64,000 nucleotides of DNA, taken from Echinarachnius parma. Lineage: Eukaryota > Echinodermata > Echinoidea > Clypeasteroida > Echinarachniidae. The position numbers were made by a program, and so were the translations under genes. The stretch spans positions 1 through 64,000 of the forward strand of contig JBAMJV010007224.1 of assembly GCA_037951105.1 (NCBI GenBank), written 5' to 3'. Below the pieces are notes generated by a model. It did not search any database. It saw nothing but the letters and a program-made list of their open reading frames with translations, and was not told the origin of the DNA. Below are positions 764 through 57,200 of this stretch, piece after piece. How positions within the stretch are numbered: position 1 is the stretch's first letter; each line of letters opens with the position of its first letter.

Positions 764-908
764 TCTGTATCAAAGTGGCCCTGGTCCAGAGGGTCTTGCG
801 CTTGCGCGGATTGCCGACCCAGACCGCGAGTCCGCGACCACGCTGGTTTCCTAACAGAGTATTTCGCCACGAGATGGTACCGCGCACCCGAGATCATGCT
901 CAATTCCA
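764..908 (+). pseudogene. Decayed partial copy of the ERK activation-loop exon (copy 1)
   Basis: This stretch resembles the first third of the exon at 1169, including recognisable DNA for [15 protein letters not shown] and part of the ADPD segment. It has base changes that destroy the DFG and TEY codons, and there is no convincing splice acceptor. It stops matching at the same point as copy 2, just after the MLN codons, so both copies derive from a truncated duplication unit. Confidence 0.75.
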
Positions 909-998
909 GTCTTTATCCAAACCTGTCATCTAAACTTATACCACCTCCTTTTATATCCTAACATCAAACTCCACTCCTTTTTTCTTTCTGTCTTGCAG

Positions 999-51215: not shown

Positions 51216-54200
51216 TTAGTCCCCATTCTGTAAGAGGGGATCCCTTGAAGTGGAGAATCCTTTCTCATCACAGAATGCCTTCAGTTTGGTCGGGTAGTCA
51301 GTCATGATGCCATCAACGCCCAGCGAGATTGCACGTTCCCACTCCCTCTCGCTATTCAACACCCAGAGATAAATCTGTAAGAAAACAAATAAAAGAGAAC
51401 AAAAAATTGAGTTAGATTACGATTTCCCTCCCCCATCAAACATCAGGCAAACTTGTAGCTCTCTGATAATACTGTAGTTTATCACAATTTCATCTACGCC
51501 CTTCTGAAGATCAAACTTATCCATTTTCCTCCTGATGTTCTTTGCATCCTTTTTGTATACATCAACCACCTCCATGTTTGACCCCCGGCCCTCACCGCGT
51601 CAATATATAATAATAATAATAATGACCACGCAGTCATGTTTGACTAAGTGTTATTCCTCAAATATTAAAGATTATGTGGTGAGATTACTGTATAAGCTGT
51701 TAATTTCGCGAGGGTTTTATTTTCGCGAATTTCGCGAATCACTACCAAAGCGCGAAATTAACAACACGCGAATATATTGGCATGAACTCATGTCAACTTT
51801 TGCCACGATGAAATAAGAACGCAATTATTACCGAACGCTGTATTTTGCGCTATACCCCCCAGCCACGGAGACAGTACAGTAGTTCAACACTACTATCACG
51901 TGCATGTGCTTTATCAACCGATATAAAAAGAAGGATATAGCATAAACTCAACATGGCGTCAAATTTACTTTGTAAACTCCTGCTGGTAGTACTACTAGCG
52001 CGTACCTTGTCCGTATCAATCCATTGATACTATAGATCGGTGCATCACACCATGTGATCACTAGTATCCACCAATTAAAAATAAAAGGAATCAAAATAAA
52101 CTCAAGATGGCGGCATATTCACGTCAATACTGGCGTCTGGCTTGTCCATTTGTAGTTCACAAATATGCTATGAATGTAACATCCATTGAGGCTATATATC
52201 GGTGCATAAACACGCGGACGTATTCATCGCGCGCTTTCTCCGTGCGCTCTAATATCAATACTCATTTACTTTCGTGTTTGAATCAATCTCCCATATGTTT
52301 GCATGTTCCCGTCAGCGGCAAGCCGCCCTGCGATGCCGTCTACATGGTCTATGGCAGTAGCTACAGATACAGAGCGCAATGCAGACAATGCGTAACCATA
52401 GACTTGTACAGTATTCAGCTCTATGCGAAACTCATTATTATTTATTAGTACGAGAATCGCCATTCACGAGACAATGCTTCTAGTTACTATAAAGCTTATA
52501 AATCATATTTTGACCGAAACTGAGGTAAAATTTGTGTACATTTTAACAATATTTCCGTAGAAATTACATTATGTTATGTCGCCGTTATGATAGAATACAC
52601 ATTTGTTCATTTATTAAAAGAATTTTCTCATGCAAAGTACACATCATTTTTGTCATATTCTAATTTATGTGCGATGCTATTTTCTCACAGGGCCGGCAGA
52701 TCGCGAAATTAACAACTCGCGAAAATGTCTGAGACCCTCTCATTCGCGAAAATATCTGTACGCGAAAATATTGGCGTATACAGTAATACAGAATCATCCC
52801 TGTTTGGCCCTTCAAGAACATTAGTTTTAACCTTCTGGAGACAATTTTTTTTTCAATTGGGATTTGTTCACATTTCAGACTCAGTCACTATTTTCCTTTT
52901 AAAAACATCTATGTTAACAGGAAACTTTAATTACCACATCTCTTTATCTTTGTATCATTTAAACTGAGGAATCCATACAGATTTTTTTAAATATCCTATG
53001 ATAATCATTTGCTGGCTAAGTAGGCAAACCAAACATTGAGAGGGAAAATCACTATGTACCTTTATTCCCCTCCTCTGTAGATGTCTAAACAAGCATGGTC
53101 GGATGACGAGGAAGTCATAGATACTTAATGCAGCCTTGAGCATTCTGCCTGCATCATGGGTAAACTCTCTGGACAAACAAGAAAACAAAGGGAGACAAGA
53201 AAATAATAATCATATTCATAGTAGGGCTTGAAATTAGCTTTGGTCCACTGGCCCGGGGTCTACTGCCTACATTACAGGTCCACTCTCTGGGAAAACATTA
53301 CAGCAAAGCGAGACAAAAAATAAATCAGATTGCAGAGCTTGAAATTAGCTCTGGTCGAACCAGCTCTGGGGGGTGTTTCACAAAGATTAAAAGATACAAA
53401 GATTAGCTAGTGCGCATGCACCAATCATAGCGGTGTAATCGTGCAGTTTGCGGTGCCGAGGCATACGACTGGTCGTACGCCTCAGCTACCGCAAGAGTGG
53501 TATGACTGGTTTGGTTGTACCGTGTGCTGTGGCCTTAAAAGAAGAGGATGCACAGATCACCAGGGGGAAAAGAGATATGTTTGATCTTCTGTAGTGACCC
53601 CTAATTGGGAGCAGTCATAAAAGAATGAAGAAGATGCTCATATGTAATATAGATATTGAATCAACTTACAAATCTTTGATGAGTGTGCCAGTAGGTATCT
53701 CTAGGTAAGACTCTCTGAGGGGGATGAATGGTAGGAGACCAGTGTACATGAGCAGGATGAGCTTGAAGATGCCTGTCACTCCAAAGATGAGAGGAATTTC
53801 TGGTGCCTACGGACAGGATGAAGAATATTATGGTGGCCGTTAGTCACATTTACAATGTAATTTGCACTGTATGTTGAATAAAGTCCTCTATCAGACTCAA
53901 AATGAGTCTGCCCGTGGGTCTAATTAAGATTTTCATAGGGGATGAAAGGAAGTAGGCCAGAGTAGTTGAGCAGGATGAGCTTGAAGATTCTCGACAGTCC
54001 AAAGATGAGAGGAATTTCTGGTGCCTACGGACAGGATGGAGAATAGTATGGTGGCATTTACAATTAAATTTGCACTGTATGTTACGTACGGACCTACATC
54101 ATGGATTTCATACTCGTAATTTCCATCAAATTGAAATGAGTCGGCCAGTAGGTCGAATTATCTCTAAGTGAGATTTTAAGAGGGGGATGAATGGCAGGAG

Positions 54201-57200
54201 GATATTAGCTTGAATATACCCAACATAGTGGCTGTTTCCTAACTCACATTTACGATGTAATGTGCACCGATACTCATGTTCATATTCCAAATAGAAGTGA
54301 TAGGTTTCAAAGTACCTCTAGGTACGATAAATTTGGAGAAATAATAATGAACATTATCATTTTTCTTTAAATAATATATATATGTAACTTCACATTTCCA
54401 CATTTCTGAAAACCCAAATTCTGGTAAATATTGGGGTAATTTAATTTGTTCCAAAGCCCCCCCCCCCCCCCTCCCTTATATAGCGGATAAGCAGCTCTCA
54501 AAAATTGTATGTATCTTCTGTTTTTTTTTACTTGGTAACTGTGATCTCACCTTCTTATGAACTTTAGCAGTAACCTTGGTGTCAAAGTTGCCCACCACCG
54601 TGATGCTCTCTCGCTTGTACTCCTGGATCAACTCCACTACCTGATCAGAAGAAAAAAAGTAATTAGAAATATCACTAAATGTAATTTAAGAAATCTTGAT
54701 ACCATAATTCAGAAAATGTATCCTTCTGTCATAAATATATATTAAGTAAGCACACTAATGATTCTCAATTGTGCATATAAACATGTAAGAAAGATAAAAC
54801 ATTTCTGTACACATATTTTCTTTTACATACCAAGTCTGTTTAGGAAAAATGTAAACAAAAATGGTCATGTGTCGTAAGATCGCATGCTGATTTGGGCTTC
54901 TGTGGGACAATATAAATTTGAGAGCAAATATTTTCTGAAGAACTCCCCCTATCCTATCAAAAGTATACATTCAGAAAATGTATCCTTCTGTCATGAATAT
55001 AGTATATTAAGTGAACACACTAATGATACATAATAGTGCATGTAAAAAAGATAAAACATTTCTGTGCACAAGAATATAATATATATATATATTTTTTTTT
55101 TTTACATAAGTAAACAAAAATTATGTAAAAATTTGTTTGCAGAAAATTATAATTTGGGTGTATTGATTGATGATATTCCCTTCAAACCCTTCCCAGCAAA
55201 TATCTAATTGTATGGCGTACACTCATGCCTTACTCACTTACCCTCTCTATGAGCTCATTATCATTCCTCTTGATGTCCAGGTTGATAGGGAAGTCTTTAT
55301 ATTCCTCAAAGACCTCCCGCAACAGGGGTATTCTCCTATCAGTCGAAGCAGATGTGCATTTTGAATCTGTAATAATAATAATATATACATATTTATATAG
55401 CGCTTCATACTGATGTTTCGAAGCGCATTTCAAACGGAAAATAATTCAACTTATACGGTGTGCGCCTGGAAAAAATATATCACTCAGATTCTCTATACTT
55501 GTGGGTTACAAAATTACACAAAATCACACAAAACTACACAGAATATATATACACATCAAATAATATTCAAAACACATCACATATTAATTCAAACCATGAG
55601 ATCAAAATAAAGAATACTATTAAGAGCAAATAACATACAAATTGAATTGAAGACAATGAAGAGTATAATTGAACTCATTGAACACTAGTTGATTTTGATA
55701 TTTTATAACGTGCATTATCCATAGAACCCATTTTTGTAAGCAATTGTAATGGTATCAAAAAGCTTAATATTGGAGAAAGTATCTGCTTTATTGATGCAAA
55801 TATTACTAAATTAAACATAATCATACAACACCATTTCTGACATGGTATAAACTACACAAGAGGATAAACTTAACTTCTTGATTGGCTAACAAAAATATTT
55901 ATAAGAGAGGCCTTTGATTATATTTACCACTTGTAAAGGTGACTCTCAAATCTCTCTGCACTTCGGGTAACTCCTAAAAAATCAATGTAAAAATGTTTTA
56001 AAAACAATAGTTAGAATGTCTACAGGTATATTCATTCAATGTAAATATGGGTATTTACTGGACTTGTGGGGGCAATGTACCCCAAATTGTACATTGTCAC
56101 TGTCAAAGAATGTTATATATATCAGCGATTAAATGTTTCAAACTTTTTTTTTTCTTCTCAATAGTGGATTGAAAATCATACTAAACTCCACTAAGATTTT
56201 ACTTTAGGTAAGTAGAATTCAGATTTCTCTCCTTTTTCTCACTAGACGAAGAAATACCTTGCTACATGCAGAGTAACATTGATGGGTGAGTACTTGTTTT
56301 TATTGTGTATTATAGGGTATACAATACAATTACAGCCTAAACGGGGTAATTAAGCAACAAATACCTCATAGTCTAAGTCTCGAACAAGCATATCCTTCCC
56401 AGTGGCCCTGTGCAGATGATCGTCATGTGACACTACCACCTGATTATCCTTGGTCAGCTGACAGTCTATCTCCAACATCTCCATGCCGGTGTCACGGGCA
56501 CTGAGAGAATAACACAGAGAAAATTAATTAATTTTTCTGGGGGGGGGGGGAATTACAGTACATAGTATTCATATCAGTCTTGCCTACCTGGAATAAAGCT
56601 GGTTTGGACCAATCAAGGTTAGAGGATAATATGCTTTAAAACTTCATTGTGAGCCCTGCATGTTACCAAGCAAAATGTGAGAATGATTACAGAGTTCATA
56701 CAGTTATTTTCAAGACTTGTTCCATGAATTTCCATGAGGTTTACAGGAAGAATTCCATGACTTTCCGTGACATTTTTTACTACATAAATTATACAGAAAC
56801 AAAATTATTTGACTTTTTCAGTCTTTTTTTGACAAAATAAGTTCTAACAAAATTATTTGTATTTCAGTGCTAAAGAAATGCAGACAAAATGAAATTCCGT
56901 TCTGACTTTCCATGACATTTCATGTCCCATCCCATCATTTTACAATTTTTCAAGGCATAGAAAGTTAGAAACCCAGACCCAAAGTCCATGACCTCAGTTT
57001 TTCAGGCTCTGTACGAACCCTGTCATATATAAAGAGGAAATAAGCATAGTCACAACTAGTGTATAAACATTTTGGATCCAGGGCTTACAAATTGTAATAT
57101 AACTGTAATTTGTTTAATAAACACAGAACAATAACTATACTGAAGTATATAACTAGTGAAATTCATATCAAATGTAAAACAAGAACATTACCAAGCATAG

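Follow-up and report, generated by a model that had tools for sequence, protein, structure and literature searches.

Tandem copies of single exons in four adjacent genes raise the question of whether new exons arise here by some mechanism peculiar to the locus, or whether its exons are affected by duplications occurring throughout the genome. The stretch analysed (hereafter the window) comprises 64,000 nt of Echinarachnius parma DNA (assembly GCA_037951105.1, contig JBAMJV010007224.1, positions 1 to 64,000, forward strand). The exon copies look like duplication debris, not like new exons supplied by anything particular to this locus; the probable explanation, in our opinion, is a high rate of short tandem duplication across the whole genome, the copies without a donor being those that selection on splicing retains.

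Exon copies in four neighbouring genes

Exon copies in the window were detected by self-BLAST and alignment, which confirmed in part a preliminary description of single exons tandemly copied in ERK (identified by Pfam and PDB comparison), in a diflavin reductase and in two genes here called GDPD-a and GDPD-b. The copies are real: neighbouring homologues of single exons, with flanking intron and of differing ages. In ERK three exons (A, B and C) are concerned:

796..908, + strand: exon A copy c1, decayed, with an 8-nt insertion (alignment)
992..1110, + strand: exon A copy c2, comprising the 3' splice site plus ~112 nt of 5' exon sequence (alignment)
1169..1532, + strand: working exon A, kinase subdomain VII onwards (open frame and splice sites)
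3392..3818, + strand: exon B pieces c0, c1 and c2, identity 68-84% (alignment)
4187..4451, + strand: exon B copies c3 and c4, exon part 88% and 87% identical
4543..4652, + strand: working exon B (open frame and splice sites)
5334..5541, + strand: exon C copy c1, AG kept, frame continuing to ESFLSNHLV, then stop
5594..5794, + strand: exon C copy c2, with a similar ending, ESFLGSHLV, then stop
5963..6065, + strand: working exon C (open frame and splice sites)

These exons had been credited with 3, 6-7 and 3 copies, and the upstream copies found here (two for A, five to six including pieces for B, two for C) agree with those numbers, but most of them are partial. Copy c2 of exon A has no donor at the homologous place, and in copies c3 and c4 of exon B mismatches are distributed across codon positions. 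The other three genes contain the following sets:

31515..31743, + strand: reductase exon 6, its inner piece found again downstream at 31791-31829 and 32093-32143
34797..34934, + strand: upstream copy of reductase exon 10, AG kept, donor GT lost
35003..35086, + strand: reductase working exon 10 (exon delimitation)
35472..35632, + strand: upstream copy of reductase exon 11, AG kept, donor weakened, stop at exon-relative +107
35682..35803, + strand: reductase working exon 11 (exon delimitation)
38525..39296, - strand: GDPD-a terminal exon set, working exon about 39069-38944, upstream copy with exon start at 39258
51147..51186, - strand: 40-nt fragment from the terminal exon of GDPD-b (51374-51216), located past that exon's stop
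53060..53168, - strand: GDPD-b working exon GDPb_9 (open frame and splice sites)
53263..53356, - strand: GDPb_9 copy, made up of the intron end plus ~24 nt of 5' exon sequence
53670..53806, - strand: GDPD-b working exon GDPb_8 (open frame and splice sites)
53902..54200, - strand: GDPb_8 copies, c1 at 54101-53902 and piece c0 at 54200-54136

Reductase exons 10 and 11 each have one upstream copy, as described, but the duplication of exon 6 reduces to a 51-nt inner piece that recurs at two downstream places, over 39 and 51 nt, and lacks splice sites. The four copies reported for the GDPD-a terminal exon are present (the working exon, one copy upstream and two 5'-truncated copies downstream), and so are upstream copies of the two internal GDPD-b exons, 53806-53670 and 53168-53060.

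In all seven internal sets of the window the duplicated unit spans the 3' splice site, reaching from the end of the upstream intron into the 5' part of the exon. Most copies are partial and end before or at the donor, which excludes whole-exon copies as a rule; the 3' part of the exon is missing from the copies of ERK A, B and C and of GDPb_8 and GDPb_9. Since the units are cut before or at the donor, the working exon is the 3'-most one. This position, previously given for working copies, holds for the seven internal exons and fails for GDPD-a, reductase exon 6 and the GDPD-b terminal exon; as a law it is contradicted by GDPD-a, by reductase exon 6 and by two loci elsewhere, L036 and L038, where the mirror geometry was found. 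MED21, an adjoining gene recognised by the Pfam profile Med21, repeats the geometry of intron end, 3' splice site and 5' exon part.

Density of short tandem duplications in the genome

The window was compared with a random sample of 147.5 kb from 15 random contigs of the same genome (the first 15 of 120 stretches drawn). Short tandem-duplication clusters number 12 in the 64 kb of the window (1.88 per 10 kb) and 28 in the random sample (1.90 per 10 kb, counted irrespective of exon content), so that cluster density in unrelated random sequence equals that of the window. Between the local and the genome-wide mechanism left open by the preliminary description, these densities favour the genome-wide one and discard a local hot spot. 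Short tandem copies make up 16,663 of the 147,500 random bases (11.3%) and 8.2% of the window. Individual random loci differ widely in coverage (0 to 0.389), and therefore the random rate is rough and the P values derived from it are approximate. TRF alone (period 50-700) marks 5.2% of the random bases (periods 51-248) and 3.0% of those in the window (periods 56-253). In 27 of the 28 random clusters the smallest offset is 91-450 bp. Dinucleotide shuffles, one for each of the 15 random loci, gave 0 HSPs: as duplications, the copies exceed chance. Non-exonic DNA of the window is also duplicated, as the following controls illustrate, together with an ORF that may correspond to the gene reported to be free of copies (WDR27):

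2949..3392, no strand: 56-nt minisatellite, about 8 copies (repeat analysis)
16780-19266, - strand: single-exon ORF in which WD40 repeats were detected
44959..45244, no strand: 64-nt direct repeat, offset 222, 95% (self-comparison)
47072..47383, no strand: tandem duplication, period 162 (repeat analysis)
54707..55121, no strand: tandem duplication in a GDPD-b intron, offset 262 (self-comparison)

The WD40-repeat ORF indeed overlaps 0 of the 12 window clusters.

The probability that a random 140-mer is overlapped by a short tandem duplication is 0.128. At this value, with a background of which about 11% is duplicated, four adjacent unrelated genes call for no special cause, although they had been taken to suggest a mechanism. 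Some excess in exons is however visible, and it speaks against debris: 8 of 23 delimited window exons, whose ends in this count deviate by a few bases from the later delimitation, are overlapped by at least 40 nt (P = 0.006 against the uniform expectation). Exon copies are recognisable for longer because one copy is under selection, and the excess disappears (P = 0.22) only if exonic copies are taken to be visible twice as long, the doubling being an assumption.

What appeared to be four unusual genes is thus a property at the level of the genome, about 1/9 of the bases in the 147.5 kb sample lying within a short tandem duplication. With so large a fraction, real exons must often be accompanied by exon debris, which will lead gene prediction astray and give rise to mistaken claims of alternative exons. 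Among the papers listed by our literature searches on echinoderm tandem repeats and short tandem duplications, none was identified as directly relevant.

Origin and fate of the copies

We propose that short tandem duplications are made, or kept, at a high rate everywhere in the genome, possibly by replication or repair slippage, and that exons would be affected like other DNA. A duplication overlapping an exon would survive if the working exon retains both splice sites and the extra piece stays unspliced, selection on splicing acting as a filter. A unit running from the upstream intron to the interior of the exon would leave an upstream piece with a 3' splice site and without a donor, the 3'-most copy remaining whole; the leftover pieces, presumably unused, would then decay as exon debris. 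In the catalogue of 359 human pseudoexon mutations given in PMC8819188, 210 are donor-site and 53 acceptor-site mutations, so stray donors would be costlier than stray acceptors. The mirror geometry at L036 and L038 indicates that such a splice-site sieve is not strict.

The splice sites of the copies were scored in 15 of the 18 upstream copies of the window and MED21 (ERK_A c1, ERK_B c0 and GDPb_8 c0 were left out), taking as donor threshold 4.9 bits, the lowest score among 18 true donors. AG is kept in 15 of 15 (at another place, L040, the copy has lost it), and a GT at or above 4.9 bits is found in five. An in-frame, stop-free donor is present in a single copy, ERK_B c2b, where it is weak (5.0 bits) and the translation is not ERK-like. 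The shared part is stop-free in the right frame in 10 of 15, stops occurring in ERK_B c2, RED_11 c1, GDPb_8 c1 and both MED21 copies.

Could an assembly artefact, that is collapsed or misjoined haplotypes, have produced the copies? Both haplotypes are seemingly in the assembly, ERK copy number is variable, and the GDPD-b copies were seen on one contig, the examined part of contig C9518 ending before that gene. The ERK, reductase and GDPD-a copies, however, also occur on C9518 and those of ERK additionally on C10725, which carries two ERK copies. Upstream copies in the window, on C9518 and in the two C10725 genes number 2, 1, 1 and 2 for exon A, 5, 1, 4 and 3 for exon B, and 2, 2, 2 and 1 for exon C. 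Misassembled haplotypes, named beforehand as what could undo the observation, are unlikely for ERK, the reductase and GDPD-a because the copies recur on separate contigs with differing ERK copy numbers, although in the reductase (34700-36000) C9518 differs from the window by 1 mismatch and 7 gap columns, which makes the evidence there less independent. Many differences also separate the copies from their own working exon, which would not be expected of a simple assembly repeat, and we regard an artefact as very improbable. A process targeting exons or 3' splice sites, coupled to transcription or splicing, seems improbable too. In its favour, the unit contains the 3' splice site in all seven internal window sets, and internal exons with copies have them upstream only in 14 cases, downstream only in 3 and on both sides in 1 (14:3, P = 0.013). 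This count omits terminal exons (GDPa_T, GDPb_T and the last exon of MED21), the inner piece of reductase exon 6 and unclear HECT rows (C7225, C125, C1685, the multi-copy C2731 and repeated rows of C1577, C3087 and C4175); it enters C10331a, whose copy has no splice site, as upstream, takes the polarity of C9377, C144 and C14541 from match rows only, and counts C12482 and C1423 once on the assumption that they are two haplotypes of one place. Tandem partial exon copies elsewhere, picked out by visual inspection of match lists (matches no more than 1 kb apart on one strand of the same contig, with overlapping ranges in the profile), amount to 10: five among 142 kinesin matches, three among 144 HECT matches and two among 84 myosin matches; none was seen for the phosphatase among the 150 listed of 154 matches. 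These match totals include haplotype duplicates, and for C4220, apparently a haplotype of C10331, no such copies are listed. Against targeting, the polarity falls to 7:3 (P = 0.34) once the window's own seven sets are removed, random sequence is equally dense in short tandem duplications, and a selective sieve would yield the same bias.

Conservation of the exon parts is greater than would be predicted for neutral debris. In five copies (ERK_A c2, ERK_C c1, ERK_C c2, RED_10 c1 and RED_11 c1, the last over the first 89 of 122 nt) the exon part is 94-96% and the intron part 52-73% identical, that is 23/439 against 123/364 mismatches, the copies having been chosen after the data were seen; in GDPa c1 the values are 87% and 42%. 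Such a sharp contrast could reflect exon-limited gene conversion from the working exon, keeping the exon parts of old copies alike while intron parts diverged, and at one base the ERK working exon C of the window has the letter found in the copies, in contrast to the three remaining working alleles. But GCAG instead of GAAG, specific to the ERK_C copies, persists on the contigs compared, and ERK_B, GDPb_8 and GDPb_9 show no contrast between exon and intron; we regard conversion as rather unlikely. The same contrast would be expected if some copies were present or recent real alternative exons, now being lost, either mutually exclusive (reductase) or alternative last exons (ERK, with the ending ESFL(S/G)(N/S)HLV common to ERK_C c1 and c2, and GDPD-a, whose copy c1 would need no donor as a last exon). 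The AGs and stop-free shared parts agree with this, as does ERK_A c1, which in spite of its frameshift differs from the working exon at 16 of 102 positions with 2, 2 and 12 mismatches at the three codon positions. Judged from the exon parts, which look conserved, ERK exon C, reductase exons 10 and 11 and the GDPD-a last exon may have an alternative-exon role. On the other hand, pieces without a 3' part could not replace ERK exons A and B, and ERK exon C copies are damaged or altered in several alleles (a 17-nt deletion in c2 of C10725a, an indel in c1 of C10725b, a nonsense codon in c2 and a different end of c1 on C9518). Pooled mismatches by codon position over 12 pairs (29/24/54) agree with a neutral copy, as they would if one member of each pair were free and the other constrained (P = 0.15 against 45% third positions, 45% being our own estimate). 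We consider a present or recent alternative-exon function rather unlikely. The claim that these duplications are a source of alternative exons is weakened both by the single in-frame open donor, weak and in a non-ERK-like sequence, and by the broken ERK exon C alleles; working alternative exons are not supported by the copies' present anatomy.

Comparison with known systems

A 2002 survey, as cited in PMC9013439, found tandem exon duplication in about 10% of animal genes. Our copies resemble the tandem exon duplications and mutually exclusive exons treated there, being adjacent homologues of single exons with flanking intron and of varied ages. Unlike mutually exclusive exons, most of them are truncated, without a usable donor and unable to replace the exon: the scored upstream copies do not all have a splice site at either end, an in-frame open donor being present in one of 15, and the frame is not kept in all copies, given the 8-nt insertion of ERK_A c1 and the stops in 5 of the 15 scored. 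They would fit at most the "degenerate exon" class as described in that paper.

The geometry is matched by the potato RdRp gene, in which, according to the account in PMC4974935, an intron was gained by tandem duplication across an intron-exon boundary. There, too, the unit joins the 3' side of an intron with the 5' side of the next exon, as found here in the seven internal window exons and MED21; the new intron inherited branch site, pyrimidine tract and AG, and it is spliced following activation of a cryptic donor in the upstream copy. The scored copies differ in having no good in-frame donor upstream, the weak one of ERK_B c2b lying in sequence without ERK coding. Few recent cases of intron gain by duplication spanning a splice site are proven, as stated in the same source. 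One could speculate that the genome holds a reservoir of duplications spanning 3' splice sites, some copies once constrained, and that intron gain, isoforms by intronic polyadenylation and exon turnover are one process; we think this unlikely. If it were true, branch site, pyrimidine tract and AG would lie ready-made beside a partial exon, many copies would be one donor mutation short of a new intron, and exon-like constraint would be temporary, ending with the death of copies that had served as alternative or truncating terminal exons. Should long-read and RNA data agree, this genome would be a natural laboratory for the origin of introns and exons from such duplications.

Finally, the copies lie head-to-tail, like medium-period tandem repeats and minisatellites; unlike homogeneous minisatellite arrays, many consist of two to three diverged copies of local unique sequence.

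Anatomy of the exon copies

The preliminary description had proposed that tandem exon copies in ERK, a diflavin reductase, GDPD-a and GDPD-b are a source of alternative exons. By self-comparison, tandem copies were seen at ERK exons A, B and C, at the GDPD-a terminal exon and at two GDPD-b exons; in the reductase, exons 10 and 11 proved to be copied as claimed, but exon 6 is represented by small pieces only. Small copied pieces are also present at the GDPD-b terminal exon. The working exons discussed below are:

1169-1532, plus strand: ERK exon A
4543-4652, plus strand: ERK exon B
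5963-6065, plus strand: ERK exon C
35003-35086, plus strand: reductase exon 10
35682-35803, plus strand: reductase exon 11
about 39069-38944, minus strand: GDPD-a terminal exon
53806-53670, minus strand: GDPD-b exon GDPb_8
53168-53060, minus strand: GDPD-b exon GDPb_9

In alignments, the internal copies run from the upstream intron end across the 3' splice site into the 5' part of the exon, and for this reason the working exon is the 3'-most one. The duplicated units of ERK, GDPb_8 and GDPb_9 end within the exon, and those of reductase exons 10 and 11 extend to the donor, which is decayed in the copy.

Spliced models of ERK exons A to C (matching ERK1/ERK2 at 1e-111 to 1e-110), of the reductase (flavodoxin, FAD and NAD domains by domain scan) and of GDPD-b (GDPD domain, in a scanned part that starts after the two most upstream delimited exons) are all stop-free, and the GDPD-a terminal exon shares 65% identity with the GDPD-b one over 132 nt. 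Several other elements were observed in the window:

4967-5201: inverted repeat of 78 nt, 96% complementary, within an ERK intron
6205-6876: inverted repeat of 317 nt (centre 38 nt, 94% complementary) just downstream of ERK exon C, a foldback or MITE-like element
16780-19266, minus strand: single-exon ORF of 828 aa with many WD40 repeats, named WDR27 in the preliminary description
23930-28918: a pair of ORFs encoding reverse transcriptase domains, with an additional endonuclease domain in one of them; these are LINE-type elements located before the reductase exons
41806-42327: TCC/TCT (GGA/GAA) tract of more than 500 nt, close upstream of a GDPD-a exon

The window corresponds to C7215:1-64000 in an assembly of 1.2 Gb in 14,790 contigs. 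On the mitochondrial contig, COX1, ND4L and COX2 follow one another in this order and translate well with code table 9, tables 5 and 24 being also stop-free; such a gene order and code suggest an echinoderm. Contig C9518 is syntenic with the window (97.7% identity over 29130-39009, 79-99% in other aligned pieces), and contig C10725 carries two further ERK copies. The ERK, reductase and GDPD-a exon copies were found again on these contigs, the compared part of C9518 ending before GDPD-b, and the reductase stretch of the window is almost identical to that of C9518 (1 mismatch in 1301 aligned bases). The two ERK genes of C10725 lie about 13 kb apart on that single contig (positions 1-27500), and would reflect either recent duplication of the gene or a haplotype that was misjoined.

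Upstream copies of ERK exons (window; C9518; C10725 first ERK; C10725 second ERK)
Exon A: 2; 1; 1; 2
Exon B: 5, plus one weak piece by alignment; 1; 4; 3
Exon C: 2; 2; 2; 1

Density and polarity of short tandem duplications

The chief interest of the finding is the genome-wide density of short tandem duplications. The same detector (BLASTN self-hits, offset at most 700, at least 50 nt, E at most 1e-6) was applied to the window and to fifteen 10-kb stretches taken at positions 5001-15000 of randomly drawn contigs (147.5 kb without N). We found 12 clusters in the window, or 1.88 per 10 kb, nine of which overlap exons and three do not, and 28 in the random sample, or 1.90 per 10 kb; the fifteen random loci gave no clusters after dinucleotide shuffling, one shuffle each. 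Short tandem copies cover 11.3% of the random-sample bases, unevenly (0 to 0.389 per locus), and with TRF at periods 50-700 the coverage is 5.2% in the random sample and 3.0% in the window.

Within the window, the share of bases covered by copies is 24% in delimited exons and 7.3% elsewhere. A random 140-mer is overlapped by at least 40 nt of tandem copies with probability 0.128, against which the 8 of 23 delimited exons affected give P = 0.006, or P = 0.22 if the probability is doubled on the assumption that an exon and its debris (a decaying partial copy) have just one member free to diverge, values to be read knowing that the window was picked because of these very exons.

The 20 kb of contig following the window contain five clusters by the same detector. 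One is a MED21 exon (Pfam Med21) with two upstream copies of the geometry seen in the window, and another is the MED21 last exon. The latter (9036-9900 of locus L017) has downstream copies of its 3' end, on the side opposite to the copies of the internal exon.

Four gene families were also surveyed in the whole genome by reading by eye the best-scoring candidates in match lists, whose totals count haplotype duplicates as well as the copies. Adjacent partial copies numbered 5 for kinesin (142 matches), 3 for HECT (144) and 2 for myosin (84), and none was noticed for phosphatase among the best 150 of 154 matches. Seven survey places were examined at the DNA level, and both geometries exist: at two loci (L036, L038) the copies lie downstream and their donor looks intact, and a third (L035) has both kinds. 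Overall, 14 internal exons have upstream copies only, 3 downstream only and 1 both (sign test 14:3, P = 0.013); excluding the seven sets of the finding itself leaves 7 upstream versus 3 downstream (P = 0.34).

Coding potential of the copies

We scored 15 of the 18 upstream copies or pieces in the window and MED21. AG is retained in all 15, and five (ERK_A c2, ERK_C c1, ERK_C c2, GDPa c1 and ERK_B c2b, each an individual copy of the exon named) have a GT that scores no lower than the poorest of the 18 true donors on which the scoring was trained. Among these five, ERK_B c2b alone is in frame and stop-free, assuming inclusion beside the working exon; its donor scores 5.0 bits and its translation is not ERK-like. 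GDPa c1 (39258-39157, minus strand) lies upstream of the GDPD-a last exon, of which it is a copy, and therefore requires no donor; its frame stays open over 34 codons until a stop of its own, and it is possibly an alternative last exon. The ERK exon C copies at 5462-5569 and 5715-5822 have similar endings, ESFL(S/G)(N/S)HLV and then a stop, and might likewise be alternative last exons; several alleles carry broken copies of this exon.

Comparison of copy and working exon in 12 pairs gives 29, 24 and 54 mismatches at codon positions 1, 2 and 3, respectively. The position-3 share exceeds one third (P = 0.0002) and fits 45% (P = 0.15), the value we estimate for a pair with one copy constrained and the other free. 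In five copies, chosen after the data were seen, 23 of 439 sites differ in the exon part versus 123 of 364 in the intron part; over all pairs the differences are 107/966 and 197/751. The five-copy contrast counts against simple debris, and could be explained by earlier use as alternative exons or by gene conversion limited to the exon.

Possible origin and known systems

Slippage or repair would generate the short tandem duplications, and selection on splicing would then retain those without a stray donor. Such a sieve is made plausible by a human pseudoexon catalogue in which, for 359 mutations, 210 are donor-site and 53 acceptor-site (PMC8819188).

Tandem exon duplication is reported as common in animals (PMC9013439, PMC12343006), and in the potato RdRp gene a new intron arose from this geometry via activation of a cryptic donor (PMC4974935). 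As in potato, the unit described here joins the 3' end of an intron to the 5' part of an exon; unlike in potato, the copies scored have no good in-frame donor. Since the potato-type anatomy is present but the good donor is absent, we place the finding within an already known kind.
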